Below are positions 36,108 through 53,000 of a stretch of 64,000 nt of DNA, piece by piece. This DNA is from Maribacter arenosus (lineage in GTDB: Bacteria; Bacteroidota; Bacteroidia; Flavobacteriales; Flavobacteriaceae). The notes beneath the pieces are model-generated. The model had not been told where the DNA came from, searched no databases, and saw only the letters and a list, made by a program, of their open reading frames with translations. The position numbers were made by a program, and so were the translations under genes. The stretch's first letter is position 1. Each line of letters begins with the position of its first letter. The stretch lies in the NCBI RefSeq assembly GCF_014610845.1, contig NZ_JABTCG010000004.1:372001-436000 (forward strand), read 5' to 3'.

Positions 36108-36431
36108 CTAGCCGTTATTCCAATATTGCGGATGGGTATCCTTGGTCATTTGGTTCCAATAATCCTGGGTCACCTTTCGACCATCAAAAGTCTTTAGCCT
36201 ACGTTGAAAAACCCATATCGTGGGGTTGAAAACCATATCTGTAACGGCAACAGTATATAATTGAGGCTCCTCTTCCGAAGGTCTTTTTTCCTCTTGTACG
36301 ATGACTTCGAAACCATTGTGCTCCAATAACTTTTTTAAAAAATCCTTGCGATTTTCGTCAACTTTCTTTTCAACAAAAGTTACCCGGGTATCTTCGATAC
36401 TACCAAATGAATGTTTTCCTTCGAGTGCCAT
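36108..36431 (-). CDS. Small conserved soluble protein at the end of the nuo operon
   Basis: 107 residues, no signal peptide, membrane segment or cysteine. Begins MALEGKHSFGSIEDTRVTFV and ends with a Trp/Tyr-rich stretch (TQDYWNQMTKDTHPQYW). It starts 5 bp after the nuoN stop and belongs to the same transcript. I recall similar proteins in other Bacteroidota but know no function. Position suggests an accessory or assembly factor of the NuoEFG-less complex I, possibly on the electron-input side; that is inference. Confidence 0.75.
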   Translation of the reverse strand: MALEGKHSFGSIEDTRVTFVEKKVDENRKDFLKKLLEHNGFEVIVQEEKRPSEEEPQLYTVAVTDMVFNPTIWVFQRRLKTFDGRKVTQDYWNQMTKDTHPQYWNNG

Positions 36432-36436
36432 GACTT

Positions 36437-37864
36437 CTAATTAAAAATTCCACTAAGGTTATAAATATAATCGTATAGCGGACTATACAGTCCAAGAACC
36501 AATATGCCAATTACGGTAATCAACAAACCAAGGCGCATATACACTTTGTTCTTGAAAAAGGGAATTGGATTATCGCTCTTTCTCAGGAACATGGCGCGTA
36601 CCACGATTAAGTAGTAGTATAGGGATATTGTTACGTTTACTACAGCTAGGAATACCAATAAATAATACCCCTCACTGGCCGCTGCGGTAAATAGAAAGAA
36701 CTTGCCAAAGAACCCTGCCACAGGGGGTATGCCCGCTAAGGAGAACAAGGCCAACATCATGACTAAACTCAGGTTGGGATTAGTGCGGTACAAACCTTCG
36801 TAATCTTTGATGTTCTCCTTGCCCGTTTGTAATGAAATGGCTTGAACCACACCAAACGCTGCTAGATTCGAGAAAATATAGATCAATACAAAGTAAACAA
36901 TGGTGGCCGTTCCTAATTGGTTGCCTGCAATTAAGCCCAACAAAATAAAACCGGCTTGTGCAATTGATGAAAAAGCCAAAAATCGTTTCATGTTCTGTTG
37001 TCTCAATGCAAATAAATTACCAATGAACATGGTCAGGACAGCAATAACGTAAATCATATTTTCCCAAACATGCATCAAAGGTTTCATAACGGTAAATAAT
37101 AAAATCATCAGTATAAAGACTGCTGCCCCTTTTGAAATGACCGATAAATAGGATGCTATACTAATGGGTGCCCCTTCATATACATCGGCCGTCCAAAAAT
37201 GGAACGGAACCAATGAAATTTTAAAGGCCAATCCGGCAAAGAACAATATCATTCCTAGGATAGTCAAATCTGTAGAAGTGATCATTTCGATAATATCATT
37301 GAAATAAATAGATCCTGAAGTGGCATATAGCATCGAGATACCGAATAATGAAACCCCTGATGCCAAGGCCGAGGATAGAATTAATTTGATACCCGCCTCA
37401 CTAGATTTTCTATTGGTCGTCTCATAAGCGGCCAAGGCGGCAACTGGAAGGGTCGATAATTCCAATCCCAAATAGAACATCAAAAAATCACCTGATGAAA
37501 TCATAAAATACATTCCCAACAAGGAAGAAAACAGGAGTATAAAAAATTCCGTACCCTTATTTTGGACCATAACTTTTTCTTGCAACCAATCAGCAGATTG
37601 TAATAAAAGGATAAACACACCAATATTTAAAACGTTCTTAAAGAAATGAATCATTCCATTTGTTCTGAACATACCGCCAAATAGGCTAGTCTCCACCGTA
37701 GGTAAAAACCCTGTAATTGTGTGGATTCCGAATAAAAAGATGGCCATGTGTACGATACTGTGCTTTTTGTTCTCTGGAATAAAAATCTCACCGATCAGCA
37801 CTAATAAGGTTATTGCTAAAAGCAGTATTTCGTGACGCATCGATAAAAAGCTACTTAATTCCAT
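36437..37864 (-). CDS. nuoN: NADH-quinone oxidoreductase subunit N (antiporter-like)
   Basis: 475 residues, about 13-14 membrane helices, Mrp-antiporter-like proton-channel subunit of complex I. Channel residues are kept: Lys in GLAFKISLVPFHFWTADVYEGAP and Lys in SVISKGAAVF. Ten bases after nuoM. Confidence 0.95.
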   Translation of the reverse strand: MELSSFLSMRHEILLLAITLLVLIGEIFIPENKKHSIVHMAIFLFGIHTITGFLPTVETSLFGGMFRTNGMIHFFKNVLNIGVFILLLQSADWLQEKVMVQNKGTEFFILLFSSLLGMYFMISSGDFLMFYLGLELSTLPVAALAAYETTNRKSSEAGIKLILSSALASGVSLFGISMLYATSGSIYFNDIIEMITSTDLTILGMILFFAGLAFKISLVPFHFWTADVYEGAPISIASYLSVISKGAAVFILMILLFTVMKPLMHVWENMIYVIAVLTMFIGNLFALRQQNMKRFLAFSSIAQAGFILLGLIAGNQLGTATIVYFVLIYIFSNLAAFGVVQAISLQTGKENIKDYEGLYRTNPNLSLVMMLALFSLAGIPPVAGFFGKFFLFTAAASEGYYLLVFLAVVNVTISLYYYLIVVRAMFLRKSDNPIPFFKNKVYMRLGLLITVIGILVLGLYSPLYDYIYNLSGIFN

Positions 37865-37874
37865 ATTCCTTATT

Positions 37875-39362
37875 TTATAAAACCCCTTGTATAAAAGGAT
37901 GTAAACTTTCCAATATCATATCGCTTAACCAAAGTGGGGCAACACCCATCCCTACAATGGGAATCAACAATAACATTATGCCTAATTTTTCATACCATGT
38001 TACTTTTTCAAGGGTTAAGAAGGCATTGTTTTTTACGGGTCCCATGAGCATTATACCCACCACGCGCAGTATATAAACAGCTGTAACCACGATGGCTGAA
38101 ACAGAAATAATCGTTGCTACCCTGTAGAACATGTCTTCATGTTCGAAGGCACCTACGAAAATGTTCATTTCCGCGACGAACCCGCTAAAACCTGGAAGGC
38201 CTAATGAGGCCAAACCGGCTATTACATATATGGCCGAGATAAATGGAATTACTTTAAGTAGCCCTCCTAATTCGGTAACATCCCTTGTATGGGTTCTTTC
38301 ATAGATCATCCCGATCAAGGCAAAGAAAAGTGCCGTCATAAATCCGTGGGAAAGCGATTGTAAAATGGCCCCGTTCCAGGATGTTTTATTGAGCATTAAA
38401 AGCGCGAATAAAACCATACCCAAATGACTTACCGAGGAATATGCGTTTATGTACTTTAAATCGGTTTGTTTAATAGCGGCAAAGGCCCCGTAAATTACCC
38501 CAATAGTTGCCAATATTATAAAGAACCATGACCAATGCATTGCGCCTTCGGGCAATAAGAACATGGCCACACGGAATACCCCATAGCCTCCTAATTTCAT
38601 CAATACCCCGGCATGGAGCATTGAAACTGCAGTTGGAGCGGAAGCGTGACCATCGGGAGACCAAGTATGGAAAGGAAACAAAGCCCCTATGACCGCAAAC
38701 CCAATAAATGTTAAGGGGAAAAATAGTTTTTGGGCCTCAATGGGAATGCTCACTTTGGAAATCTCCAAGATATTGAAGGTCAAAGCACCGCCATCGGCAT
38801 TTGAATTGAAATAGATGCCTAAAATACCCACCAAAAGTACCGCTGACGCACCCATCAACATCAAAGTCAATTTCATCGCGGAATATTCCTTTGGTCCTGT
38901 TCCCCAAATGCCAATTAATAAATACATGGGAATTACAGCGATCTCAAAGAAAACGAACATAGTAAACAGATCGAGGGAAATAAAGAATCCATAAACCCCG
39001 ATGGAAAGTACGATTAGAGAAACAAAAAACTCCTTAGGTAGATCATTCATCTTCCAAGAAATGAATACGCCTGCCAATACGACTATTGCCGTCAATAATA
39101 GGAGTGCTACAGAAATGCCGTCTACACCAATATTGTAGTGAATATTGAATTCTTTGAACCATACCACATCTTTGGTAAAGACCATTATGTCACTATTCAC
39201 TGCACGCTCCTTAAAATAAGCGAAAACAAGATTAATGGCCATACCAAATTGTACAAGACTGCCAATCAACGAAACGATACGCGCCTGTTTCAACCCTTTG
39301 GTGAAAACCAAGGCAAGTATGGTTAATATGGGTACAATGATAAAAAGAGTTAGTATATCCAT
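37875..39362 (-). CDS. nuoM: NADH-quinone oxidoreductase subunit M (antiporter-like), variant helix 7
   Basis: 495 residues, about 14 membrane helices. Glu140 (VFFEIAVIPMYLLIG) and Lys256 (HAGVLMKLGGYG) match the conserved channel Glu and helix-8 Lys. The helix-7 Lys, found in E. coli NuoM within AFAVKMPVVPLHGWLPD, is Ile225 here: GFAVIGALFPFHTWSPDGHASAPT. This variant also occurs in other Bacteroidota as I recall. Nine bases after nuoL. Confidence 0.95.
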   Translation of the reverse strand: MDILTLFIIVPILTILALVFTKGLKQARIVSLIGSLVQFGMAINLVFAYFKERAVNSDIMVFTKDVVWFKEFNIHYNIGVDGISVALLLLTAIVVLAGVFISWKMNDLPKEFFVSLIVLSIGVYGFFISLDLFTMFVFFEIAVIPMYLLIGIWGTGPKEYSAMKLTLMLMGASAVLLVGILGIYFNSNADGGALTFNILEISKVSIPIEAQKLFFPLTFIGFAVIGALFPFHTWSPDGHASAPTAVSMLHAGVLMKLGGYGVFRVAMFLLPEGAMHWSWFFIILATIGVIYGAFAAIKQTDLKYINAYSSVSHLGMVLFALLMLNKTSWNGAILQSLSHGFMTALFFALIGMIYERTHTRDVTELGGLLKVIPFISAIYVIAGLASLGLPGFSGFVAEMNIFVGAFEHEDMFYRVATIISVSAIVVTAVYILRVVGIMLMGPVKNNAFLTLEKVTWYEKLGIMLLLIPIVGMGVAPLWLSDMILESLHPFIQGVL

Positions 39363-39371
39363 CTTAATCGT

Positions 39372-41291
39372 TTAGTTCGTCCACATATAAATAAAAACCA
39401 ATACTAGTACCACGACCCCGGCTATAAATGCGAATGCGTAATCCTGTACTTTACCAGATTGCAAACTTTTTATCTTTTCTGAGGTCCAAACTGTTTTATT
39501 GCCAATCCCCACCATTGTGCCATCAACATATTTCTTATCGAATTTTGCTATAGGTGCCGATACCCGGTTGAATAAAATTTTCTTGGTTATAAATAGATAA
39601 ATCTCATCGAAATAGAATTTATCACTGGTCCATTTGTAAAACGGACCGAAAAAGTTGACCATTTTATCTGCGAGATTATTTTCATTTTTGTAGAAAGCCC
39701 AAGCAAGACCAATTCCTAATAAACCAACACCAACCGCTACTGCCGCTAGTGGATAGTTCAAATGGGCTTCGAAACCTGCTTTGTCAGCTGTGACAAATTT
39801 GCTGAAGGGAATGAATCCACCAACAATACTTAATAATGCCAAAACCATTAAAGGAAAAGTCATTGAAATTGGGGATTCATGTGGTTTATGTTCATACTTG
39901 GTTTCCTTGCCCCAGAATATTCCAAAGTAAATCCTGAACATATAGAAAGCGGTAAGACCAGCGACGAACACTCCTACAAAATAGATGAGTTTGTTATGCT
40001 CAAAAGCGGCAACCAAGATTTCATCCTTACTAAAAAATCCTGCGAAGGGAGGAACTCCTGCAATCGCCAGGGCAGCAATTAAAAAGGTAATATTGGTGAT
40101 AGGCATGTACTTTCTTAAGCCGCCCATATCTTTCAGGTAATTACTATGTACCGCATGTATAACCGAACCGGCACATAGGAATAACAAGGCCTTGAACATG
40201 GCATGGGCAAATAAATGGAACATCGAAGCCATATAACCCAGACCCTCATGGCCGTCATAACCAGAAACACCCAAGGCAAGCATCATATACCCCAATTGGG
40301 ACATGGTAGAAAAAGCCAACACCCGTTTAATATCAGTTTGGGTAACGGCTATTATAGCCGCAAATAAGGCCGAGAATGCACCAACATAGGCAACAATATT
40401 CAGGGCAAATCCGTTTTCTACAAAGTAGTACATGGGGAACAATCGGGCAACCAAAAATACACCGGCGACCACCATGGTAGCGGCATGGATCAAGGCAGAA
40501 ACGGGGGTGGGCCCTTCCATGGCATCTGGTAACCAAATATGCAAAGGGAACATCGCCGATTTACCAGCTCCACCAATAAATATGAGTATCAATGCCCATG
40601 TCAATACAGATAATCCCATAAATGAAGTCGATGCCCAGTTAAGAATAGCATTTCCTTCGGGATTGTTCAACATCTCAAAATCATAAGTTCCTGTATAATA
40701 GCCAACAATTAGTATTCCTATTAAAAACCCCAAGTCAGCAAACCGCGTCACAATAAATGCTTTTTTGGCCGCGGAAACGGCTGATGGTTTTGTGTAGTAG
40801 TAACCGATCAATAAATAGGAGGATACACCCACCAATTCCCAGAAAATATAGATTTGGAAGAGGTTCGTTGCTAAAACCAGACCGTACATTGAAAAGGAAA
40901 ACAAGGAGAGAAAGGCAAAAAATTTAGTATAACCGTCATCCCCTTTCATGTAGCCTCTGCTGTAGATGTGCACCATTAAGGAAACTATGGAAACCACGAT
41001 GAGCATCATCACCGAAATGGGATCAACCAGGACGCCCATGTCAATGGCTAACGTCTCCGTGAAATTCATCCAAACCGTTTTTTCCACAAAAGTTTGATAT
41101 ACCCCATTTGCTTTGCCATAAACAAAGAAATACTGATAAGCGGTATAAAAAGACAATAGGGTTGAGGTCAATAATCCTAATACTCCCACATAACCAGATA
41201 CCGCAGGTTTTATTCTCTGATTGAATATTCCCAATAGTAGAAAAACCACTAAAGGAATCAAAGGAATTAGAATGATATAACTAAAGTTCAT
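39372..41291 (-). CDS. nuoL: NADH-quinone oxidoreductase subunit L (antiporter-like)
   Basis: 639 residues, the largest membrane subunit, with the C-terminal lateral helix extension. Channel residues present: Glu in IFWELVGVSSYLLIG, Lys in GGAGKSAMFPLHIWLPDAMEGPTPVSALIHAATMV. Eleven bases after nuoK. Confidence 0.96.
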   Translation of the reverse strand: MNFSYIILIPLIPLVVFLLLGIFNQRIKPAVSGYVGVLGLLTSTLLSFYTAYQYFFVYGKANGVYQTFVEKTVWMNFTETLAIDMGVLVDPISVMMLIVVSIVSLMVHIYSRGYMKGDDGYTKFFAFLSLFSFSMYGLVLATNLFQIYIFWELVGVSSYLLIGYYYTKPSAVSAAKKAFIVTRFADLGFLIGILIVGYYTGTYDFEMLNNPEGNAILNWASTSFMGLSVLTWALILIFIGGAGKSAMFPLHIWLPDAMEGPTPVSALIHAATMVVAGVFLVARLFPMYYFVENGFALNIVAYVGAFSALFAAIIAVTQTDIKRVLAFSTMSQLGYMMLALGVSGYDGHEGLGYMASMFHLFAHAMFKALLFLCAGSVIHAVHSNYLKDMGGLRKYMPITNITFLIAALAIAGVPPFAGFFSKDEILVAAFEHNKLIYFVGVFVAGLTAFYMFRIYFGIFWGKETKYEHKPHESPISMTFPLMVLALLSIVGGFIPFSKFVTADKAGFEAHLNYPLAAVAVGVGLLGIGLAWAFYKNENNLADKMVNFFGPFYKWTSDKFYFDEIYLFITKKILFNRVSAPIAKFDKKYVDGTMVGIGNKTVWTSEKIKSLQSGKVQDYAFAFIAGVVVLVLVFIYMWTN

Positions 41292-41302
41292 ATTTTAAGA
41301 AT

Positions 41303-41620
41303 TTAGTATTTCATAGTTTCTACATCCTTGACCTCAACAGAACTTATCTGTCTGTAAAGACCGATAATGATTGAAACTGCCAATGCCGTTTCAGCTGCTG
41401 CCACGGCAATAATGAAAAGCGAAAACAATACGCCTTGCAACATATCTGGATATAGATATTTGTTGATGATAACGAAATTGATAACCGAGGCATTCAAAAT
41501 CAATTCAACCGAAATCAAAATTGATATCAAATTTTTTCGGGTGATAAATCCATATACACCTATGAAAAACAAAATGGATGTTATCGTAAGGATTTCGTAA
41601 ATGCTGATTCCTGGAATCAT
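41303..41620 (-). CDS. nuoK: NADH-quinone oxidoreductase subunit K
   Basis: 105 residues, three membrane helices, with both conserved membrane glutamates (SVELILNASV and AAAETALAVSI). Overlaps nuoJ by 4 bp (ATGA). Confidence 0.95.
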   Translation of the reverse strand: MIPGISIYEILTITSILFFIGVYGFITRKNLISILISVELILNASVINFVIINKYLYPDMLQGVLFSLFIIAVAAAETALAVSIIIGLYRQISSVEVKDVETMKY

Positions 41621-42141
41621 AAGGCTTTATCATTTTTACCGGTTAATTTGGCTCCTTTGGCAATAATGATGGCACCTATCATTGCCGCCAGCAGAAGAAC
41701 ACTGATTACTTCAAAAGGCAGAATGAACCCTCCTGCCTCATAACTCAATAGTTTGGAGCCTATATCAGCTGTTGTAGTTGTTCTTGAATTTTCCACAACA
41801 TTGAATTCATGGGAATAAATGGTCGTCAAGAATATGCCTAATCCTACCATACAGGCAACTGCAGTGAGTATCTGTCTGGATAGTTTGGCTATTTCCAATT
41901 GCATCTCTATATGGTGGACCAACAACACCGAAAAAATGATCAAAACAATAATGCCGCCTGCATAGACGGTCAATTGAATGGCCGCTAAAAAATTATAGTC
42001 AATCAGGAAGTAGATTCCAGCAACCCCACAGAGTACAAATAACAGATAAATCACCGAGCGTAACATTTTACGACTGGTTACCGAAGCGATTGCAAAAACA
42101 ACCATAATCAGTGCAATACTGTAAAAAATTATTCTTTCCAT
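41617..42141 (-). CDS. nuoJ: NADH-quinone oxidoreductase subunit J
   Basis: 174 residues, five membrane helices. Typical helix-3 segment LAAIQLTVYAGGIIVLIIFSVLLVHHIE carries the pi-bulge region. Overlaps nuoK by 4 bp; 4 bp after nuoI. Confidence 0.94.
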   Translation of the reverse strand: MERIIFYSIALIMVVFAIASVTSRKMLRSVIYLLFVLCGVAGIYFLIDYNFLAAIQLTVYAGGIIVLIIFSVLLVHHIEMQLEIAKLSRQILTAVACMVGLGIFLTTIYSHEFNVVENSRTTTTADIGSKLLSYEAGGFILPFEVISVLLLAAMIGAIIIAKGAKLTGKNDKAL

Positions 42142-42145
42142 GCTT

Positions 42146-42622
42146 TTAATCTTCTACTCCTGGCATCAGTTTGGAACCGGGTTTGTTTAAAACTCTAGTT
42201 AATGCGGTACGATCATAAACCGAATTTTCGAAATTTTGTCCCCATTCAATAGCATCCGTAGGGCAGACATCAATACAAAGTCCACACATGGTGCACATAC
42301 TGAGATGATAAACGAATTTGTCTATCTTTTTTTTCTTTTTCCCAGTCTCCTCATCAATACCCCTATCCCATATGATTTCTATGGTGCCGTTTGGACACGC
42401 AATTTCACATTTTTGACAACCTGTACAACGGTGCCTGTTTTCTTCATCATGGGGCATGATGACCTCTCCTCGAAAACGGTCGAACATTTTCAATGTGGCC
42501 CTATTATCAGGGTATTGCTGTGTAATAGCCCCTTTTCTTGAAGTAAGAAAGTATTTTCCTGTAACACTCATTCCTGTTAGGAGTGTTTTTATGCCTTTGT
42601 ATATGTCTGAAAAATAACTCAT
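42146..42622 (-). CDS. nuoI: NADH-quinone oxidoreductase subunit I (2[4Fe-4S])
   Basis: 158 residues with two ferredoxin motifs, CTGCQKCEIACP and CTMCGLCIDVCP, for clusters N6a and N6b. In complex I lacking NuoEFG this subunit is the most exposed Fe-S site and the expected entry point for electrons from ferredoxin. Four bases after nuoH. Confidence 0.95.
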   Translation of the reverse strand: MSYFSDIYKGIKTLLTGMSVTGKYFLTSRKGAITQQYPDNRATLKMFDRFRGEVIMPHDEENRHRCTGCQKCEIACPNGTIEIIWDRGIDEETGKKKKKIDKFVYHLSMCTMCGLCIDVCPTDAIEWGQNFENSVYDRTALTRVLNKPGSKLMPGVED

Positions 42623-42626
42623 AGGC

Positions 42627-43706
42627 TTAAAATTGGATTGTTAGGTTTAGCCAAACAATCAAGGCCATTATTACAATATTCATAAGGTTAAGCGGGAGCA
42701 GGTATTTCCATTCCAACGTCAATAGTTGATCCACACGCAATCTGGGGAACGTCCACCTGAACCACATCATTAAGAATACGAGCACCATTGCTTTGGCTAA
42801 AAACCAGAATACACCTAAAATTGGGATTGACTCGGTGATGCCAAAAGGTGATAACCACGCTCCAAAAAATACTGTGGTTGCTATGGCCGCAATGATGAAC
42901 ATATTTATAAATTCGGCCAAAAAGAAATAGGCGAACTTCATTCCTGAGTATTCGGTATGGAAACCAGCACCCAATTCCGATTCGGCTTCCGCCATATCAA
43001 ATGGCGCCCTGTTTGTTTCGGCCGTACCAGCAATCATATAGATCATAAAGGCGATAATCGCTGGGATATGTCCTTGTACGATCAACCATCCACTTTTCTG
43101 AACTTCAACAATTTCGGAAAGTTGAAGTGAGCCAGTAATCAAAATCATTGTGAGCAAGGATAACCCGATAGATAGCTCATAACTGATGGTCTGAACACCA
43201 CTACGCATCGCACCTATCAATGCAAATTTGTTATTACTACTCCATCCGCCTAAAAGAATACCTATGACTCCAATTGAAGAAATAGCGATAAGGAAAAGTA
43301 TTCCAATGTTAATGTCAAAAGCCTGAAAATCTTGGGTGAATGGAATAACAGCTAAGGCCATCAGTGCAGTGATGATTACAAAATAAGGCGCTAAATTATA
43401 TAGGAACTTATCGGCTTTTTCTGTTCCTGTAAGTTCTTTTGAAAGTAATTTCAAAGCATCGGCCATGGTTTGTAATAATCCTTGAAATCCAACTCTATTG
43501 GGGCCTATACGCAACTGGAACCAAGCAGCAACCCTTCTTTCTATTAAAACCAAAAACAATCCAGCTACGGCAAAGATGGCGAGATAGACGATTGCAATCA
43601 AGACCATTTCAATAAAATAGGCCATATTTTCGGACATTGAACTGTAAAGCCAATCGTGGATACTTCTTGTTATACTTAATGCTCTTATCATTGTATTATC
43701 TGTCAA
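42627..43706 (-). CDS. nuoH: NADH-quinone oxidoreductase subunit H
   Basis: 359 residues, eight membrane helices, with the family core ERRVAAWFQLRIGPNRVGFQGLLQTMADALKL and the acidic loop FDMAEAESELGAGFHTEYSG lining the quinone channel. Its start overlaps the nuoD stop by 11 bp (Met6 at 43691 would remove the overlap). There is no room for nuoE, F or G between D and H. Confidence 0.96.
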   Translation of the reverse strand: MTDNTMIRALSITRSIHDWLYSSMSENMAYFIEMVLIAIVYLAIFAVAGLFLVLIERRVAAWFQLRIGPNRVGFQGLLQTMADALKLLSKELTGTEKADKFLYNLAPYFVIITALMALAVIPFTQDFQAFDINIGILFLIAISSIGVIGILLGGWSSNNKFALIGAMRSGVQTISYELSIGLSLLTMILITGSLQLSEIVEVQKSGWLIVQGHIPAIIAFMIYMIAGTAETNRAPFDMAEAESELGAGFHTEYSGMKFAYFFLAEFINMFIIAAIATTVFFGAWLSPFGITESIPILGVFWFLAKAMVLVFLMMWFRWTFPRLRVDQLLTLEWKYLLPLNLMNIVIMALIVWLNLTIQF

Positions 43707-44823
43707 TGTCAGGGATTACAAGATCCAATGTTGCCATGGTGGCTACCAAATCCCCTATTTTACCCCCTACTGCGATATGATTTAGTAACGATAAATTTGA
43801 AAATCCAGGGGAGCGGAATTTTAAACGATACGGACTTTTTACACCATCACTGATTATATAAACCCCTAATTCACCCCTTGCTGTTTCCACTCTTTGGTAA
43901 AATTCTCCCTTGGGTAATTTTATAACTGCATTGGTGGCCACACGGTATTCACCTTCGGGAATGTTATCTATGAGTTGTTCTATGATTGATAATGATTCCC
44001 ACATTTCCTGAATCCGTACCAAATAACGTGCATAGGTATCCCCCTCGGTTTTGAGCGCTTCTTGGAACTTCACTTTGTCCAAGGCACTATACGGATGGTG
44101 TTTCCGTACGTCACAAGAATAGCCTGAAGCTCGGCCAACAGGTCCGGAGGCTCCAAAAGAAATCGCATCTTCCTTTGTCAATATACCAATCCCTTTTGTC
44201 CTTTTTTGAAAAATGACATTATGGGTCAATAACTTATCGTATTCGGGGAGTTTGGTTTTAAAGTGAGCTATGAAATCTTTTGTACGTTTAACAAAATTCG
44301 GATGGATATCGAACATTAAACCTCCAGGAACGTTATAGTTCATCGTTAAACGGGCACCACAGGTTTCCTCAAAAATATCGTTTATCAATTCCCGATCCCT
44401 AAATCCATAAAAATAGGTGGTCAACGCACCGACGTCCATTCCCATTACCCCCCACCATAAACAGTGGGAAGAAATCCTCGTTAGTTCTCCAATGATAGTT
44501 CTAATCACTTTTACGCGGTCTGGGACTTCCAATTCGAGGGCATTTTCAACGGTTAGACAGACTGCCTCGTTATTAATGTTCGAAGAGAGATAATCCATAC
44601 GATCGGTAAGGTGAACGATTTGCTGATAAGTATCGCGTTCACACATTTTTTCAATAGAACGATGAATGTAACCCAGATCAGGCTCTACTTTCTTTATGAT
44701 TTCACCATCTATGGTCAACAAAAGACGTAGAACCCCATGGGTCGCAGGATGCTGAGGCCCCATATTAATGAAATATTCCTCAGATCTAAAGTTGGTTTCT
44801 ATGGTGGTTGTATCCATGGTCAT
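43696..44823 (-). CDS. nuoD: NADH-quinone oxidoreductase subunit D
   Basis: 375 residues. Quinone-site His in NMGPQHPATHGVLRL, then EPDLGYIHRSIEKM and the C-terminal FSNLSLLNHIAVGGKIGDLVATMATLDLVIPDIDR. Adjacent to nuoC without a gap. Directly followed by nuoH. Confidence 0.96.
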   Translation of the reverse strand: MTMDTTTIETNFRSEEYFINMGPQHPATHGVLRLLLTIDGEIIKKVEPDLGYIHRSIEKMCERDTYQQIVHLTDRMDYLSSNINNEAVCLTVENALELEVPDRVKVIRTIIGELTRISSHCLWWGVMGMDVGALTTYFYGFRDRELINDIFEETCGARLTMNYNVPGGLMFDIHPNFVKRTKDFIAHFKTKLPEYDKLLTHNVIFQKRTKGIGILTKEDAISFGASGPVGRASGYSCDVRKHHPYSALDKVKFQEALKTEGDTYARYLVRIQEMWESLSIIEQLIDNIPEGEYRVATNAVIKLPKGEFYQRVETARGELGVYIISDGVKSPYRLKFRSPGFSNLSLLNHIAVGGKIGDLVATMATLDLVIPDIDR

Positions 44824-45420
44824 TTATTTGATAACCATATTTATTTCATCTACATAATCCTTTCTTAAAGGGAATCCTTCCCATTCCTCGGTAAGAAAAA
44901 GCCGTTTTAGATTCGGGTGATTATTGAATTTTATCCCAAAAAAATCAAATACCTCCCGTTCATGGAATTCAGCCGTGGCCCATATATCGTAAACAGAATC
45001 GAATGTCGGATTCTCCCTATCGGCGGTTTTGACTTTTACAACCACGGTATGTCTGAAGGTGGTTGATTCCAAATGATATACTACTCCTAATTCAGTGCCC
45101 CAATCCACCCCTGACAGACAGAAAAGATAATCGAAATATGTTTCTTTATTCTTTTTTAACTCGGACATTAAGGTATGAAGCTGTTCGGGTTGAACAAAAA
45201 TGTTCAGGAATTGGGAACCTTCTTCACTAAATTCCAAAAGACTTGGGTTAATTATCGTTTCAGCCGTTGGTTTTTTGTCCGAACCTTCTTCAATGACATC
45301 CTCTACGATTACATCTGGAATCGATTTTGCCTCTGGATTTGGAAACCAGCTACCGATTAATTCCTGTAATTTTTGGTTGGTCATATCAGTTGGTTTAGAG
45401 TCCTTCATCGAACCCATCAA
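44824..45420 (-). CDS. nuoC: NADH-quinone oxidoreductase subunit C
   Basis: 198 residues. The family core begins near residue 70 and ends in [26 protein letters not shown] and FPLRKDY. The first 60 residues are an acidic, Pro/Lys-rich extension. Several in-frame starts exist (45420, 45408, 45384); the first two overlap the nuoB 3' end, the last lies 11 bp beyond it. Confidence 0.93.
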
Positions 45421-45973
45421 TAGGGTTCTTTTTTTGCTTTAAACTCTCAGTTCTTATTTTATCTTGTAGCATTAACATGCCTTCCAATAAGGCTTCTGGT
45501 CGAGGAGGACACCCTGGGACATAAACATCCACAGGAATAACATGGTCTGCCCCTTTTACTACTGAATACGTATTATAAAAAAATGGTCCTCCTGAAATGG
45601 CGCATGCCCCCATCGCAATCACATATCTAGGCTCTGCCATTTGATCGTACAAACGACGTAGAACCGGTGCCATTTTATTGACAATGGTGCCGGCAATAAT
45701 TATTAAATCGGCCTGTCTTGGAGAGGGCCGTGCAACTTCGAAACCAAATCTGGAATAATCATGCCTTGCTGCCCCGGTCTGCATCATTTCTATAGCACAA
45801 CAACTCGTTCCAAAATATAAGGACCAAAGTGAATTGGAACGTCCCCAATTGATGATCTTATCCAAAGAGGTCACGATAACATTGGCACCGTTCCCTGCCG
45901 GAATAACTTTTCCAGGAAAATCATCTGGTATTTCAGGTTTGTCTATTCCCATTTTAAAGCTCCTTTCTTCCAT
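45395..45973 (-). CDS. nuoB: NADH-quinone oxidoreductase subunit B (cluster N2)
   Basis: 192 residues with the four N2-cluster cysteines: tandem Cys-Cys in [12 protein letters not shown], Cys in [10 protein letters not shown], and [14 protein letters not shown]. Overlaps the nuoA end (start 45973; Met8 at 45952 is an alternative). Confidence 0.96.
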
Positions 45974-46293
45974 GCATACATTAACCCCAATCCTAAAATC
46001 ACTAGAAAGATGAGAACCTCGATAAAGGCTATGGCCCCAAAATCCTTAAAAACCACTGCCCACGGTATAAGAAAGGCCACTTCAACATCAAATATCAAAA
46101 ATAGAATGGCAAATAAATAGTAGCCGACCTTGAATTGCACCCATGTGGGCCCAATGGTCGTCATTCCACTTTCATAGGGTTCCCTTTTTTGCGGGTTGTC
46201 GGATTTATGGGAAATTAAATTGGACAAAAAGTTAGCTCCCGCCACCAAAACAATTCCAGCAATTAAAAATACAATAATAGCTTCAGAACCCAT
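45943..46293 (-). CDS. nuoA: NADH-quinone oxidoreductase subunit A
   Basis: 116 residues, three membrane helices, with the loop [37 protein letters not shown]. First nuo gene of the run, 25 bp after korB and on the same strand, with no terminator or promoter of note in the gap. Confidence 0.95.
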
Positions 46294-46318
46294 ATTTTTA
46301 TTTCTATCTGCTTAAATA

Positions 46319-47329
46319 TTAAAATACATTATAAATATCCCCTGAAAAAAACAAATCATCGGTTTTCTTGAAATTCGAATCTGCTTTTACCTGGGCCGTA
46401 AGAGCGTCCTCCCTTTCTTCCAAGGTAACGTCATCAAAACTTCTGATAATACCGGTGACCATTGGAAATTCCAAACGTACCAACATTTGATGTAAGGTCG
46501 GGTCTTCTTCCTTGGCATTGTGTACCAATATATCTTCTTCGGTAATTCCGTTTTCGCCCAAGGTGACAACTTCCAATTTCAATCCGTTAAGCACCAAACC
46601 TTTGTTACGTTCCTTGCCGAATATCATAGGTTTACCATCTTCAACGAAAAGCATTCGGTCTTCACGAACGGCTTTGTCAGTATACTTGTCATAGGCCCCA
46701 TCATTAAAGATAGGGCAATTTTGCAAGACTTCGATGAGCGAGGTGCCTTTGAACTTTTCGGCATCGATGAAGATCTGTGTCATTTCCTTTGGGGTATTCC
46801 CTGATATTCTTCCGAAAAATCGAGCTTTTGCCCCTATAGCCAACTCACCTGCCGAGAAGGGGGGTTGTGTATTTCCATAGGGAGAAGACTTCGTCTTTTG
46901 ACCCACCAAGGAAGTAGGGGAAAATTGGCCTTTTGTAAGACCATATATTTCATTATTGAACAGTACAATGTTCAGGTTGATATTTCTACGCAGCACATGA
47001 ATAAAATGATTGCCGCCAATGGCCATGGAGTCCCCATCACCCGTAATGACCCAAACGCTTAAGTTGGGATTGGCCAGTTTTACACCAGACGCTATGGCCG
47101 GAGCCCTGCCATGAATACTGTGCATACCGTAGGTATCCATATAATACGGAAATCTAGAGGAACACCCTATCCCTGAAATAAATACTACATCTTCTTTTTT
47201 GACACCCATTTCGGGAAGTGCCTTTTGCATCGATCGAAGAATTACATAGTCGTCACATCCTGGACACCATCTGACTTCTTGATCACTTGCAAAATCCTTG
47301 TATGTATACTCTTTTACTGCTGCTTCCAT
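46319..47329 (-). CDS. korB: 2-oxoacid (2-oxoglutarate):ferredoxin oxidoreductase, beta subunit
   Basis: 336 residues. Thiamine-diphosphate subunit: RWCPGCDDYVIL and GIGCSSRFPYYMDTYG supply cluster cysteines, VITGDGDSMAIGGNHFIH binds TPP-Mg, and ALVEVLQNCPIFN-type sequence (here SLIEVLQNCPIFND) gives the fourth cysteine. This subgroup acts on 2-oxoglutarate. With korA it makes succinyl-CoA from 2-oxoglutarate while reducing ferredoxin. Two bases after korA, 25 bp before nuoA. Confidence 0.92.
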   Translation of the reverse strand: MEAAVKEYTYKDFASDQEVRWCPGCDDYVILRSMQKALPEMGVKKEDVVFISGIGCSSRFPYYMDTYGMHSIHGRAPAIASGVKLANPNLSVWVITGDGDSMAIGGNHFIHVLRRNINLNIVLFNNEIYGLTKGQFSPTSLVGQKTKSSPYGNTQPPFSAGELAIGAKARFFGRISGNTPKEMTQIFIDAEKFKGTSLIEVLQNCPIFNDGAYDKYTDKAVREDRMLFVEDGKPMIFGKERNKGLVLNGLKLEVVTLGENGITEEDILVHNAKEEDPTLHQMLVRLEFPMVTGIIRSFDDVTLEEREDALTAQVKADSNFKKTDDLFFSGDIYNVF

Positions 47330-47331
47330 AT

Positions 47332-49188
47332 TTATTTCACTAAAGATTTAAACTTTTCTACCAATTCATTGTTCGCGAAAGGCAGTCCTTGAATTTTATT
47401 GAATTGTAGAAAATCGTATCCGTCATAATTGATTTTCAATACCTTGACGAATTGACCGCTGTTCAATTCACAGACAATGATTTTCTTGAACTTTTTAAGT
47501 ACTTCTTCGGTATTTTTCGGTAAGGGGTTAATGTAATTAAAATGTGCGAATCCGATAGTATCATATCCTTCATCATTTAATTCCTTAACCGCGGAATGCA
47601 AACTACCATAGGTGCCGCCCCATCCAATAACCAATAAATCACCTTCCGAGGTAAATTCAGGTATAATTTCCGGGATATAGTTTTGTACCCTTTTTACTTT
47701 TTCGGCCCTTATTTTCGTCATGTATTCGTGATTTTCGGGTACGTACGACACATTGCCCGAAATTCGGTCTTTTTCCAATCCCCCGACCCTATGCTCCAAG
47801 CCCGGGGAGCCGGGAATAGCCCAATTTCTTGCTAAACTATCCTTATCGCGATCATATGGATGCCAATCTGCTTTCGCCTCTTTGACAATTGTATTCTTTA
47901 TTTCGGGCATGCTGGCTACGGATTTTATTTTCCATGGTGCCGATCCATTGGCGATATACCCATCGGTCAACAAGAGTACGGGTGTCATATGCTCCAAAGT
48001 CAATTTTGCCGCTATATAGGCATACTCGAAACAATTGGCAGGGGTGCTGGCGGCGATGACTATGATCGGGCTTTCGCCATTTCTACCGTACATGGCCTGC
48101 AAAAGATCTGATTGTTCTGTTTTTGTAGGTAATCCAGTAGAAGGTCCACCACGTTGTACATCTACTATGACCAATGGCAATTCGATCATCATGGCCAATC
48201 CGAGGGCTTCACCTTTTAAGGCCAACCCAGGACCTGATGTTGTGGTTATGGCCAAATCACCGGCAAATGCAGCTCCGATAGCAGAGCTTATGCCTGCAAT
48301 TTCATCTTCGGCCTGCAATGTTTTAACCCCAAAGTGTTTATGTTTCACCAATTCATGTAATATATCGGAGGCAGGTGTAATGGGGTATGACCCCAAGAAC
48401 AATTCCAATCCTGATTTCTCTGCAGCGGCCAAAAAGCCCCAAGCCGTGGCTTGGTTCCCCATCAGGATTCTATAAGTGCCCGGTGCCATTTTAGCCGGTG
48501 CAATGGTATAGGCATTAGGAATCAACTCCAAAGTTTCTGCAAAATAGAAGCCAGCGTTCAATACTTTGGTGTTGGCCTCGATAATTTCAGGTTTGTTCTT
48601 GAATTTTTTGTTGAAAAAGTCGACGGTATACTCTGTCGAACGATCATACATCCAGTAGACCATACCCAAGGCGAACATATTCTTGCTTCGGGTTATGCTT
48701 TTATTGTCTAACCCTTCAACATCCTTTAAGGTCTCTTTGGTCAAAGAACTCATGGCCACCTCAATGACCCTATAGTTTTCCAGACTCCCATCTTCTAAAG
48801 GATTAGTTTCGTAAAGGGCTTTTTCCAAATTCTTTTTGGTAAAGGAATCCGTGTCGACAATTACAGTGTGGCCTGGCTTTAGGGCATGTAGATTGGTTTT
48901 TAAACCAGCGGGGTTCATGGCCACCAATAGATCGACATTGTCACCCGGTGTGCTGATTTCAACACTACCTATATGTACTTGGAATCCTGAAACACCATAT
49001 AAACTTCCTTGGGGTGCCCTAATTTCCGCTGGATAATTTGGAAATGTGGCAACATCATTGCCAAACATAGCTGAAGTATCAGAGAACTGGGTACCTGTCA
49101 ATTGCATGCCGTCTCCAGAATCACCGACAAAACGGATGACTACGGCTTCTAAAACTTCTTGCTTTTTCTTCTCTGTGGCTGCAATCAT
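47332..49188 (-). CDS. korA: 2-oxoacid (2-oxoglutarate):ferredoxin oxidoreductase, alpha subunit (gamma-alpha fusion)
   Basis: 618 residues: an N-terminal gamma domain (AVVIRFVGDSGDGMQLTG, NYPAEIRAPQGSLYGVSGFQVHIGS) fused to the pyrimidine-binding alpha domain (GSYPITPASDILHELVKH, LQAEDEIAGISSAIGAAFAGD, TSGPGLALKGEALGLAMMIELPLVIVDVQRGGPSTGLPTK). This gamma-alpha fusion is typical of KorA enzymes of aerobic bacteria. First gene of the kor-nuo run and divergent from the ferredoxin gene (153 bp between starts), with shared regulatory sequence. Confidence 0.93.
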   Translation of the reverse strand: MIAATEKKKQEVLEAVVIRFVGDSGDGMQLTGTQFSDTSAMFGNDVATFPNYPAEIRAPQGSLYGVSGFQVHIGSVEISTPGDNVDLLVAMNPAGLKTNLHALKPGHTVIVDTDSFTKKNLEKALYETNPLEDGSLENYRVIEVAMSSLTKETLKDVEGLDNKSITRSKNMFALGMVYWMYDRSTEYTVDFFNKKFKNKPEIIEANTKVLNAGFYFAETLELIPNAYTIAPAKMAPGTYRILMGNQATAWGFLAAAEKSGLELFLGSYPITPASDILHELVKHKHFGVKTLQAEDEIAGISSAIGAAFAGDLAITTTSGPGLALKGEALGLAMMIELPLVIVDVQRGGPSTGLPTKTEQSDLLQAMYGRNGESPIIVIAASTPANCFEYAYIAAKLTLEHMTPVLLLTDGYIANGSAPWKIKSVASMPEIKNTIVKEAKADWHPYDRDKDSLARNWAIPGSPGLEHRVGGLEKDRISGNVSYVPENHEYMTKIRAEKVKRVQNYIPEIIPEFTSEGDLLVIGWGGTYGSLHSAVKELNDEGYDTIGFAHFNYINPLPKNTEEVLKKFKKIIVCELNSGQFVKVLKINYDGYDFLQFNKIQGLPFANNELVEKFKSLVK

Positions 49189-49341: not shown

Positions 49342-49692
49342 ATGGCTATAATAATAACAGATGAATGCATAAATTGTGATGCTTGTGTTTCTGAATGTCC
49401 CAACAATGCGATTTATGAACCAGACCAAGAATGGTCCTATTCCGATGAAACCGCTTTAAGCGGTATGGTAACAACACTTGACGGTAGGGAAGTTGACGCT
49501 GATGCGGAAAATGACCCTGTTTCAGATGAATTCTATTTTATTGTTACAGACAAGTGTACCGAGTGTAAAGGATTCCATGATGAACCACAATGCGCTGCAG
49601 TATGTCCTGTTGACTGTTGTGTTCCTGATGAGAACCATGTAGAGTCCGAAGAGACCTTACTAGCTAAAAAAGCTTGGTTACACGGGGAATAA
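49342..49692 (+). CDS. fdx: 2[4Fe-4S] ferredoxin, Allochromatium-type
   Basis: 116 residues. First cluster: Cys9, 12, 15, 19 (CINCDACVSECP). Second: Cys72, 75, 84, 88 with the CX2C-X8-CX3CP spacing of the Alvin/YfhL type; two more Cys follow at 92-93. A 40-residue acidic insertion separates the motifs and a C-terminal tail extends the domain. Such ferredoxins have very low potential clusters. It lies between the kor-nuo run and PFOR genes, so it is the obvious electron carrier linking both oxidoreductases to complex I. Confidence 0.93.
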   Translation: MAIIITDECINCDACVSECPNNAIYEPDQEWSYSDETALSGMVTTLDGREVDADAENDPVSDEFYFIVTDKCTECKGFHDEPQCAAVCPVDCCVPDENHVESEETLLAKKAWLHGE

Positions 49693-49967: not shown

Positions 49968-50067
49968 TGCAAATTTAAAACCGATACCTCGGCAATACGT
50001 TACTGTTAATCGTGTTAGGGTTCTTTTTCCCAATTTGCATAGGTATCTAAAACAAGCGAAAATCATC

Positions 50068-53000
50068 ATGGAAAAAAAATCCAAAAAGTTAATTTGTGAC
50101 GCTAATGAAGCCGTTGCCAGAGTGGCACACAAAACCAATGAAGTTTGTGCCATTTATCCGATTACCCCTGCTTCGCCCATGGGCGAGCATGTTGATGTGT
50201 ATAGTTCCAAAGGACAGAAGAACATATGGGACAATGTTCCCAGGATAGTTGAAATGCAAAGTGAAGGTGGTGCTGCTGGAGCCGTTCATGGCTCGCTTCA
50301 GGCCGGTGCTTTAACCACTACATTTACAGCTTCCCAAGGTTTATTGTTAATGATTCCTAACATGTACAAAATGGCGGGAGAGTTATTGCCATCGGTTATT
50401 CATGTTGCGGCAAGAACAATAGCAACCCATGCATTATCCATTTTTGGTGATCATTCTGATGTTATGGCAGCAAGACAAACGGGATTCTCCATGTTGTTTG
50501 GCGGTTCTGTACAGGAAGCTCAAGATTTTGCGTTAATTTCCCAAGTAGCGACCTTAAAATCAAGAATACCTTTCATGAATATTTTTGATGGATTTAGAAC
50601 CTCCCATGAGATTTCCAAAATCGATGGTATTTCTGATGACATTATAAAAGACATGATGCCAGAAGATGAAATAATGGCTCATAAGAAAAGATCATTGGAT
50701 CCAGACAACCCTGTAATTAGAGGTACTTCCCAAAATCCGGATGTATTTTTCCAAGCAAGGGAAGCGGCCAACCTTTATTATGATAAGGTTCCTGGGATTG
50801 TTGAAAAGACAATGGAAGAATTTTACAAACACACAGGAAGAAAATATAGTTTGTTCTATTATGTAGGTCATCCTGAAGCTGAAAAAGTTATCGTAATTAT
50901 GGGTTCAGGACAAGGTCCCGTTATGGAAGCTGTTGATACCATGGTTAAAAATGGCGAAAAAGTCGGGGCAATTATTGTCCGCCTGTTCAGACCATTCTCA
51001 ATAAACCATTTTGTCGATGCCTTACCAAAAACCGTTCAGAAAGTTGCGGTTTTGGATAGGACAAAAGAACCAGGTAGCGTTGGGGAGCCTCTTTACCAAG
51101 ATGTGGTAACGGCTTTCATGGAAAGCGAAAGAACCATGCCGCAAATTATCGGAGGACGCTACGGATTATCATCCAAAGAATTTGATCCTGCCATGGTTAA
51201 AGCGGTTTATGACGAGCTGGATAAGAAAAAGCCGTTGAACCACTTTACCGTTGGTATCAATGATGATGTCTCTTTTAGAAGTCTGGAAATTGGGGAAAGA
51301 TTACAGACCGTCAAAACTACTTTTAACTGTATGTTTTATGGATTAGGATCTGATGGTACGGTAGGCGCTAACAAGAATTCCATAAAGATTATTGGAGAAA
51401 CTACGGATAACTATGTACAAGGTTATTTTGTTTATGATTCCAAAAAAGCAGGTTCCCAAACAGTTTCGCATTTGCGATTTGGTCCTGCTCCCATATATTC
51501 TACCTATTTAATTCATAAAGCAGACTTTATAGCATGTCATAAGTTTAATTTCATTGAAAAATATGATATCCTGAAGAACATTAAAAAGGGTGGTACTTTC
51601 TTATTGAACTCGCCTTTTGCTAAAAATGATGTTTGGGAAATACTTCCTAAAAAAATGCAGGAAGAGATTGTTGAAAATGATGTGGAATTTTTCGTGATTG
51701 ACGCCACCAAAGTGGCTCAAGAAGCCAATTTGGGCAAGCGTACCAATACCGTCTTACAAACGTGCTTCTTTGCAATTTCCGGAGTACTTCCTAAGGAAGA
51801 AGCGATTAAGAAAATCAAGGATGCCATTGTAAAATCATATTCCCATAAAGGGGAAAAGATCGTTAAAATGAATTTCAAGGCAGTTGATAAATCATTGGAA
51901 AATCTCCAAAAAGTGGATTATCCTAAACAGATTACCAGTGATGCTGAATTTAAGCCAATGATGACAGGGGATGCCGATCCATTTGTAAAAGAGGTATTAG
52001 GAAAAATATTGGCAGGAAAAGGAGATGAACTCCCAGTGAGTGCTTTCCCCGTTGATGGGACTTTCCCAACAGGTACTACCCAGTTTGAAAAACGCGGTAT
52101 TGCCAATAAGGTCCCGGTATGGGATGGTGAAGACATATGTACACAATGTAATAAGTGCGTGGTAATTTGCCCACATGCCGCCATTAGGGCCAAAGTGGTT
52201 TCCAATGAAGAAATGGTAGGAGCCCCATCAACATTAAAATCGGTTCCTGCAAAAGGAAGACCGTTTAATGACAAGGAAGAATCCTATGTGTTGCAAGTAT
52301 CCCCACAAGATTGTACCGGTTGTGATCTTTGTGTCGCTGTTTGCCCTGCAATTAGTAAAGAAGACCCCAACTTCAAGGCCATCAACATGCATAATAAACT
52401 TGAGGTTGAGACCGTTGAGGATCCAAACTGGGATTACTTTATAGAACTACCAGATTATAACAGAACGGAATTACAGATAACCAACGTAAAAGGTTCTCAA
52501 TTCCTTGAACCGTTATTCGAGTTCTCTGGGGCCTGCCAAGGTTGTGGTGAGACACCATATATCAAATTATTGACCCAATTATACGGAGACAGTATTTTGA
52601 TTGCCAATGCAACAGGTTGTTCATCTATTTATGGGGGCAATTTACCAACAACACCTTATAAAACCAATAAATTTGGTAGAGGACCGGCTTGGGCAAATTC
52701 ATTATTTGAAGACAATGCCGAATATGGTCTTGGTATGAAATTGGCACTTTCTAAAAAACAAGAAATTGCGACTAACCTATTAAAAGGATTGGAAAAAGAA
52801 GTAGGAAAAGAATTGGTAGAAGCTATTTTGAACAACCCGGAAAAAACGGAAGCTCAGAAAGAAGAAAACTTCGCCAATCTTGATAAGCTTAAACCTATAT
52901 TAGCTTCAATAGATAAACCAGAAGCTAAAAAACTATCACAACTAACCGAATATTTACGTAAGAAATCCGTGTGGATACTTGGTGGTGATGGTTGGGCCTA

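Follow-up and report, generated by a model that had tools for sequence, protein, structure and literature searches.

A complex I gene set without NADH module, 2-oxoacid:ferredoxin oxidoreductase genes and a conserved small gene in one putative operon of Maribacter arenosus

Both the headless complex I, that is the enzyme without its NADH module, and electron flow from 2-oxoglutarate oxidoreductase (OOR) to Nuo are already known. The headless NUO complex of Bacteroides fragilis does not use NADH and was drawn with an unknown donor (PMC7002350). In Campylobacterota, electrons from pyruvate oxidoreductase (POR) and OOR enter a Nuo complex in which nuoXY replace nuoEF, flavodoxin or ferredoxin being the likely coupling (PMC6682613), and ferredoxin has also been proposed for the Melioribacter cluster that lacks EFG (PMC3534657). 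An attempt to name one donor shared by all bacteria that possess the 11-subunit form was unsuccessful (PMC11238625, citing Moparthi and Hagerhall 2011). Here we analyse a gene block of Maribacter arenosus (Bacteroidota, Flavobacteriaceae) in which the genes for such a complex directly follow those for a 2-oxoacid:ferredoxin oxidoreductase, probably acting on 2-oxoglutarate (KOR), and are themselves followed by a small gene, orf107. The block covers positions 36108-49188 of the window, the 64,000-nucleotide stretch of contig NZ_JABTCG010000004.1 (positions 372,001 to 436,000) that was analysed; coordinates without a contig or locus name refer to the window.

In our view the block probably specifies a quinone reductase that depends on ferredoxin and pumps protons: a complex I of 11 subunits that lacks the NADH module and is co-encoded with one electron source. 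Fourteen genes form a minus-strand run in the order korA-korB-nuoABCDHIJKLMN-orf107, and all of them were confirmed as they had been proposed in an earlier reading made from the sequence alone (the sequence-only reading below), including its upper limit of 25 bp for the gaps. The first gene, korA (47332..49188), encodes a fused gamma-alpha subunit of 618 aa (TIGR03710, 635.9 bits with a cut-off of 482.75; best PDB match 6n2n_A, E 2.4e-68), and korB (46319..47329), 2 bp further on, encodes the 336-aa subunit for thiamine pyrophosphate and a [4Fe-4S] cluster (PF02775 above cut-off; best PDB match 6n2n_B). After the widest gap of the block, 25 bp, follow nuoA (45943..46293; PF00507), nuoB (45395..45973; PF01058), which overlaps nuoA by 31 bp, nuoC (44824..45420; PF00329), which overlaps nuoB by 26 bp, and, with a gap of 0 bp, nuoD in its short 375-aa form (43696..44823; PF00346, NF004739 above cut-off). 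nuoH (42627..43706; PF00146) overlaps nuoD by 11 bp and is separated by 4 bp from nuoI (42146..42622), which again lies 4 bp from nuoJ (41617..42141; PF00499); nuoK (41303..41620; PF00420) overlaps nuoJ by 4 bp. The genes for the antiporter-like pump subunit NuoL (39372..41291; TIGR01974, 600.1 bits), for NuoM (37875..39362; TIGR01972, 421.6 bits) and for NuoN (36437..37864; TIGR01770, 379.3 bits), all three above cut-off, follow at distances of 11, 9 and 10 bp, and orf107 (36108..36431; 107 codons) starts 5 bp after nuoN. Family scans (Pfam, NCBIfam) back 13 of the 14 genes, the exception being orf107.

The nuo genes are a complete and contiguous 11-subunit complex I set. Because nuoD and nuoH overlap by 11 bp, no nuoE, nuoF or nuoG lies between them; the exact overlap and the absence of the three genes from the locus had both been read correctly before. 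The ligands for the iron-sulfur clusters are intact, with four cysteines in NuoB (58, 59, 124, 155) and two CxxCxxCxxxC motifs in NuoI (residues 66 and 110), judged by the ligand motifs of the two subunits.

We propose that KOR, acting on 2-oxoglutarate, and the neighbouring pyruvate:ferredoxin oxidoreductase (PFOR), acting on pyruvate, would reduce the 2[4Fe-4S] ferredoxin whose gene lies between theirs. This ferredoxin is of the YfhL type (49342..49692, plus strand, divergent from korA; 116 aa; NF033683, 96.2 bits with an equivalog cut-off of 86), and PFOR is a protein of 1187 aa (50035..53598, plus strand; TIGR02176, 1756.5 bits, above cut-off). From reduced ferredoxin, electrons would pass to the clusters of NuoI, the probable point of entry, then to NuoB and on to (mena)quinone, while the membrane arm would pump protons. 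NADH would deliver its electrons to a separate Na+-NQR, so that there would be two parallel entry points sorted by carrier. We infer the feeding by ferredoxin from the gene linkage and from published parallels; the direction of flow, the quinone and the pumping are likewise proposed. Since PFOR is also linked to the block, the pump looks like a general sink for ferredoxin electrons. The drop in potential from ferredoxin to menaquinone is much larger than that from NADH to menaquinone, and a pump fed by ferredoxin could therefore keep its full proton yield in a menaquinone chain.

The substrate of KOR is likely 2-oxoglutarate. KorA belongs to the OAFO family as a fused gamma-alpha subunit (TIGR03710), and for both KorA and KorB the nearest PDB structure is 6n2n, which we take to be the Magnetococcus enzyme. 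This assignment agrees with the statements on MmOGOR in PMC11304471. The four cluster cysteines of KorB (22, 25, 56 and 205) all align with cysteines of 6n2n_B and 5b46_B. At the positions that correspond to S41a, T349a, D468a and L123b of StOFOR1, the enzyme has A54, T351, L471 and L131, the first placed by eye and the others by alignment, and Ala, Thr, Leu and Leu are the residues of the 2-oxoglutarate-specific KorAB of H. thermophilus (PMC5020499). Lys49b of StOFOR1 is replaced by Arg59, as in 6n2n; the exchange K49R in StOFOR1 favoured pyruvate (PMC5020499). Taken together, these residues make 2-oxoglutarate the probable substrate. The genome contains a second 2-oxoacid:ferredoxin oxidoreductase (G000:C1:871886-874263), with an alpha-like gene (379-aa frame) and, separate from it, a gamma-like one (192-aa frame).

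The genes from korA to orf107 would form one transcript. There is no terminator-like site in the 25-bp gap between korB and nuoA, and a single weak sigma-70-like site (9/12) is located inside korB (46474-46446), about 150 bp ahead of nuoA. Sigma-70-like sites were not commoner than in shuffled sequences (32 vs 43.6 expected) and terminator-like sites occurred at chance level (14 vs 13.5 expected); a Bacteroidota promoter consensus matched twice in the window with 2.9 matches expected, and not ahead of nuoA. A terminator that splits korB and nuoA into two units was thus rejected, since the gap holds no such site and the promoter-like site inside korB is at chance level; the separate promoter and terminator that the sequence-only reading had named as refuting its proposal were not apparent.

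Conservation of the block in its own family was assessed in a draw of 60 genomes from 59 genera (the Fisher tests are not corrected for kinship). orf107 is present in eight of these genomes (7 of the 59 genera), and the NuoD domain is found in the same eight (p 3.9e-10). KorA scores above cut-off in 8/8 NuoD-bearing genomes vs 2/52 NuoD-less ones (p 1.8e-8), and the order korA korB nuoABCDHIJKLMN orf107 is kept in the seven other NuoD-bearing genomes without exception. In a second draw, of 395 genomes across the phylum, 11 further loci with orf107 were read; korAB lie directly ahead of nuoA in the window and in 12 of the 18 other orf107-bearing loci of the two draws (7/7 from the family draw, 5/11 from the phylum draw). 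The ferredoxin gene is divergent from korA in 10 of 11 same-family loci, window included; the eleventh contig ends too soon to tell, and one of the ten ferredoxins, close to a contig edge, was matched over only 64 of 116 residues. PFOR follows the ferredoxin in seven of the 11 loci; at L142 the 3.7 kb in view do not contain it, and at three loci it lies out of view.

A scan of contigs for orf107 gave 202 relatives, and the best 80 were kept as named loci. Most of them are labelled as Flavobacteriaceae or as one of its genera (Maribacter, Lutibacter, Eudoraea, Muriicola, Seonamhaeicola, Yeosuana, Aestuariivivens, Robiginitalea, Flavobacterium), and some 'Bacteroidetes' bins and Botryobacter ruber are also included. 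After overlap filtering, nuoN is the last block gene before orf107 in all 80 named loci; unfiltered, this holds for 79, and the exception was taken as a cross-match of the related nuoL query. Sixty-six loci have fewer than 60 bp between nuoN and orf107 and 12 have 60-140 bp; the remaining two gaps measure 350 and 952 bp. nuoA is in view in 46 loci, and 22 show the 3' end of korB; elsewhere the available sequence stops before nuoA or at most about 215 bp upstream of it. Where nuoD and nuoH are both in view (63 loci), the gap between them ranges from -8 to 485 bp, and none of the 80 loci has a NuoE/F/G-like match. This negative result has a working control, because the same queries found E, F and G in five operons (L171-L175). 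The headless complex of Botryobacter ruber (L106) groups inside the Flavobacteriaceae loci, beside L022 (support 0.986), a position that would fit a transfer of the block between lineages or a mixed record.

The genome (4.17 Mb, 99.99% complete) has two matches to the NuoF domain PF01512. One is RnfC in an rnf operon (TIGR01945 above cut-off, with RnfD above its cut-off as well); the other is a 608-aa NuoE+NuoF-like fusion that scores below the NuoF and NuoE cut-offs and adjoins, on another contig, a HoxU/NuoG-like plus VhuG-like fusion protein and a [NiFe]-hydrogenase large subunit, in a cluster that also has maturation-type genes. A hidden free NuoF was rejected, as both matches are accounted for. 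No free NuoF or NADH module was thus found genome-wide via PF01512, NuoE and NuoG not being searched on their own, which agrees with the earlier expectation of a complex without NADH module. The hydrogenase locus (L026, G000:C20:24000-43999) holds two [NiFe]-hydrogenase sets side by side: the first has a VhuA-like large subunit besides the NuoEF-like and the HoxU/VhuG-like fusion, each scoring below the NCBIfam cut-offs, and in the second a cytochrome b-like gene accompanies a large subunit that comes nearest to the hydrogenase models of E. coli, though below cut-off.

Other electron routes are present in the same genome. SucA (931 aa, E1 of 2-oxoglutarate dehydrogenase) and SucB (404 aa, E2) are encoded close together on another contig (C12), both above their NCBIfam cut-offs, and SucA is above cut-off in 57 of the 60 genomes of the family draw. 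KOR as the sole route for 2-oxoglutarate was therefore rejected; it is a second route and not a replacement. NqrF is above cut-off at C24:32290-33564, on a further contig, and two heme-copper oxidase genes agree with the description of the organism as an aerobe. Among 30 selected genomes, NqrF is above cut-off in 25, namely all 13 with a korAB-nuo block and 12 from the same family without nuo. The five genomes without NqrF are three of genus g60 (G080, G116 and G228), which have a strong long-type NuoD match (418 aa in G080 and G228), and the f4 genomes G150 and G208 (family labels such as f4 are those of the phylum sampling), both of which possess an operon with NuoEFG. NQR is thus the likely entry for NADH where the block is present, and a division by carrier is the natural reading. 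The sequence-only reading had let the 2-oxoglutarate step feed the pump through ferredoxin and bypass NADH. Its first part gains from the position of KOR ahead of nuo across genera and from the KorAB-like pocket, the role of ferredoxin being proposed here as there. The bypass was worded too strongly, given SucA/SucB, NqrF and Rnf in the genome and the linkage of PFOR; KOR does stand in the block, but PFOR and NQR had been overlooked.

The small gene at the end of the block had been listed only as such; in the loci read so far it was seen solely beside headless nuo sets, and it may be the most informative part of the block. The predicted protein has 107 aa, 12.8 kDa and a pI of 5.9, and is hydrophilic. 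No Pfam or NCBIfam family matched it at E 0.001, and the best hit of a PDB profile search had an E of 0.22. Purifying selection is indicated by a pN/pS, the ratio of non-synonymous to synonymous differences per site, of 0.10-0.15 in six comparisons, with synonymous sites near saturation. Fifteen alignment columns are invariant across 18 sequences from three families; identity between families is only 30-39%, yet the gene is kept as the last of the operon. As it contains no conserved cysteine, and here no cysteine at all, orf107 is not an Fe-S electron carrier. The AlphaFold2 model has a mean pLDDT (predicted local distance difference test) of 79 and a pTM (predicted template modelling score) of 0.71; none of 471 Foldseek matches reached E 0.001 (best 0.13, PII-like proteins), and no function could therefore be read from the fold.

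The genes past orf107 vary: the commonest first neighbour occurs in 16 of the 80 named loci, and in four the sequence stops less than 300 bp past orf107. Because the genes after it differ, orf107 marks the end of the conserved unit. In the window, the gene two places beyond orf107 (32999-35257) encodes a protein of 752 aa that combines cytochrome c554/c7-type multihaem domains with tetratricopeptide repeats, and the same protein type directly follows orf107 in loci L046 and L047. Elsewhere (L140:579-908, L141:17722-18048), some 170-230 bp after orf107 and in the same orientation, lies a gene for a protein of about 109 aa whose cysteines are densely clustered. It is the first neighbour in eight of the 80 named loci (e.g. 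L062, L063, L068, L072, L073, L089) and does not adjoin orf107 in the window. By eye it looks like an adrenodoxin-like [2Fe-2S] ferredoxin; it had no Pfam or NCBIfam match at the thresholds used and only a weak match to the [2Fe-2S] domain of NqrF.

Across the phylum draw, orf107 is found in 13 of the 395 genomes and NuoD in 351. In the 11 loci read (the 13 minus the window and its congener), which come from three families, orf107 starts 2-45 bp after the aligned nuoN end and the operon is headless throughout. Three same-family and two f8 loci have korAB ahead of nuoA, and the other six are f4 loci. korAB were not found at the locus of the six f4 and of four f11 complexes in the stretches read; KorA is encoded elsewhere in the genome in 6/6 f4 carriers of orf107. 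In a separate selection of 30 genomes, 19 have KorA above cut-off, among them the six f4 carriers of orf107 and each of the four f11 genomes. Two f4 loci without kor, in G150 (L145:6770-7489) and G349 (L147:5314-6087), have a FAD/NAD-binding reductase gene of the ferredoxin-reductase superfamily (Pfam FAD_binding_6 and NAD_binding_1) directly ahead of nuoA, possibly another electron entry.

A wider orf107 profile gave 12 matches at E <= 0.1 in 55 selected genomes, the 11 known ones and one in G427 (E 0.099, two stops), which was taken as chance. The f4 genomes G150, G185 and G208 carry a second, NuoEFG-bearing operon, and in each the single orf107 is at the headless one; with the same wider profile, orf107 was not found in G061 and G092, whose NuoEFG operons were read. 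Neither was it found at eight headless loci of three other groups, f11 (four, which in this differ from the locus described here), f18 (two) and f17 (two). A further f8 locus (L161, G377) has no EFG matches and no orf107, and its 2.1-kb gap between nuoD and nuoH holds unrelated open reading frames, one of them racemase-like (PF01177). In a single FastTree of five concatenated subunits (34 loci, 1965 columns), the headless complexes of f1, f8, f4 and f11 form one group (support 1.000), and f17, f18, G377 and the NuoEFG-bearing complexes fall outside it. Inside the group, f4 is the first branch and f11 the second (supports 0.945 and 0.905); a loss of orf107 in f11 would thus be the simplest reading.

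What orf107 does for the complex allows more than one answer. Most likely it is a peripheral subunit or an assembly factor of this group of headless complexes, and thus a candidate for a twelfth subunit or for such a factor; perhaps it covers or docks the face where NuoG would sit. Close to an even chance, though slightly below it, we give the explanation that it serves in assembly or regulation and plays no part in electron entry, the 11 subunits taking ferredoxin alone; this is compatible with a ferredoxin-fed pump. The eight headless loci without orf107, the lack of cysteine and the lack of a significant fold match fit this explanation; its retention as the last operon gene at such low identity between families, while the genes beyond vary, argues against it. 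A bolder and clearly more tentative proposal is that orf107 is a new, dedicated subunit that docks ferredoxin or replaces the N-module; in aerobic Bacteroidota, KOR, PFOR, ferredoxin and a 12-subunit pump would then make up one chain, a directly coupled 2-oxoacid:quinone oxidoreductase, beside NQR and an ordinary 2-oxoglutarate dehydrogenase.

Several observations weigh against a ferredoxin-dependent pump as it is proposed here. KorB (TIGR02177, 235.1 bits with a cut-off of 261.9) and NuoI (TIGR01971, the NuoI model, 92.1 bits with a cut-off of 113.05) score below their NCBIfam cut-offs. The six f4 loci keep the headless operon and orf107 without kor, two f8 loci lack ferredoxin and PFOR within about 4 kb beyond korA, and two family genomes, G033 and G048 (the latter 82% complete), have KorA without NuoD. 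KorA is also present in six of seven tested f4 genomes without orf107 and, as stated, in all four f11 genomes, so that KOR is not specific to the orf107 type outside the family of the window. NqrF is not tied to the block either, since it is also found in the 12 tested family genomes without nuo. With SucA and SucB present the KOR route need not carry the main flux of the tricarboxylic acid cycle, and Rnf, which can exchange electrons between ferredoxin and NAD, competes for reduced ferredoxin.

The complex could also run in reverse, the proton motive force driving electrons from quinol to ferredoxin, with KOR and PFOR acting as carboxylases in the synthesis of 2-oxoglutarate and pyruvate. Both enzymes are generally reversible, quinol could be formed from H2 by the [NiFe]-hydrogenase set of membrane type, which has small-subunit, large-subunit and cytochrome b-like genes, and SucA/SucB already give an oxidative route. 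However, the terminal oxidase genes together with SucAB indicate oxidative metabolism and electron transfer from quinol to ferredoxin is steeply uphill, and we consider the reversed complex improbable. Still less credit is given to the NuoE/NuoF-like diaphorase of the [NiFe]-hydrogenase cluster as a substitute N-module that would leave NADH as the donor. No other NuoEF-like protein turned up in the genome, and for Synechocystis a transfer to NDH-1 from the bidirectional hydrogenase has been put forward (PMC9414918), but the diaphorase sits in a hydrogenase cluster on another contig and NADH has NQR. A Na+/H+ exchange device made from the antiporter-like NuoL/M/N, instead of a redox enzyme, takes up the kinship with Mrp antiporters raised for the headless NDH-I of Prevotella (PMC6560451) and is the least credible of all, as NuoB and NuoI retain their Fe-S ligands, the best conserved proteins of the block include NuoB, D, H and I, and the operon contains a redox donor enzyme.

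A ferredoxin-dependent quinone reductase thus remains the reading that we prefer. The donor of a complex I without NADH module is a question stated in print, and here a donor enzyme shares the gene run across genera of the Flavobacteriaceae; this makes the question directly testable in named strains, for example of Lutibacter and Muriicola, which carry nuo and orf107. In addition, the block supplies a protein without assigned function, orf107, to place on complex I. The genome paper of Lutibacter profundi names NADH dehydrogenase complex I, NQR and PFOR (PMC5219744). Among the open-licence PubMed Central papers listed, we found none with a title or abstract start that describes a kor-nuo operon in Bacteroidota or the orf107 family.

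The photosynthetic NDH-1 has 11 core subunits and extra small subunits. With this complex of cyanobacteria and chloroplasts, the one described here would share ferredoxin as donor (PMC11238625), but orf107 could not be recognised as a relative of its docking subunits, such as NdhS, given the best PDB match of E 0.22 and the absence of a significant fold match. The Desulfitobacterium complex is needed with lactate and pyruvate, and PFOR and ferredoxin were proposed as its donors from co-expression; there the link comes from proteome patterns and not from a shared operon, and the organism is a strict anaerobe (PMC11238625). The two-subunit KOR of M. tuberculosis and Magnetococcus resembles the enzyme studied here in its fused gamma-alpha KorA and its KorB, and that of M. 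tuberculosis is very stable in air (PMC2773412); the excerpt of that paper describes no linkage to complex I, whereas here both are in the same operon.

In the epsilon-Nuo of Campylobacterota, 2-oxoglutarate and pyruvate oxidoreductases feed a complex I that does not use NADH (PMC6682613). It differs in keeping nuoG (PMC7002350) and in having nuoXY in the place of nuoEF; in M. arenosus nothing lies between nuoD and nuoH and the extra gene stands after nuoN, so that orf107 differs from nuoX and nuoY in its position. Similar, too, are the headless complexes of Bacteroides and Prevotella, which belong to the same phylum, have a nuo operon without E, F and G and leave NADH to NQR (PMC7002350, PMC6560451). 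In B. fragilis, however, kor1AB (BF638R_4321-4322) are located apart from nuo (0850-0841) (PMC11304471, PMC7002350), whereas in M. arenosus the two are found together.

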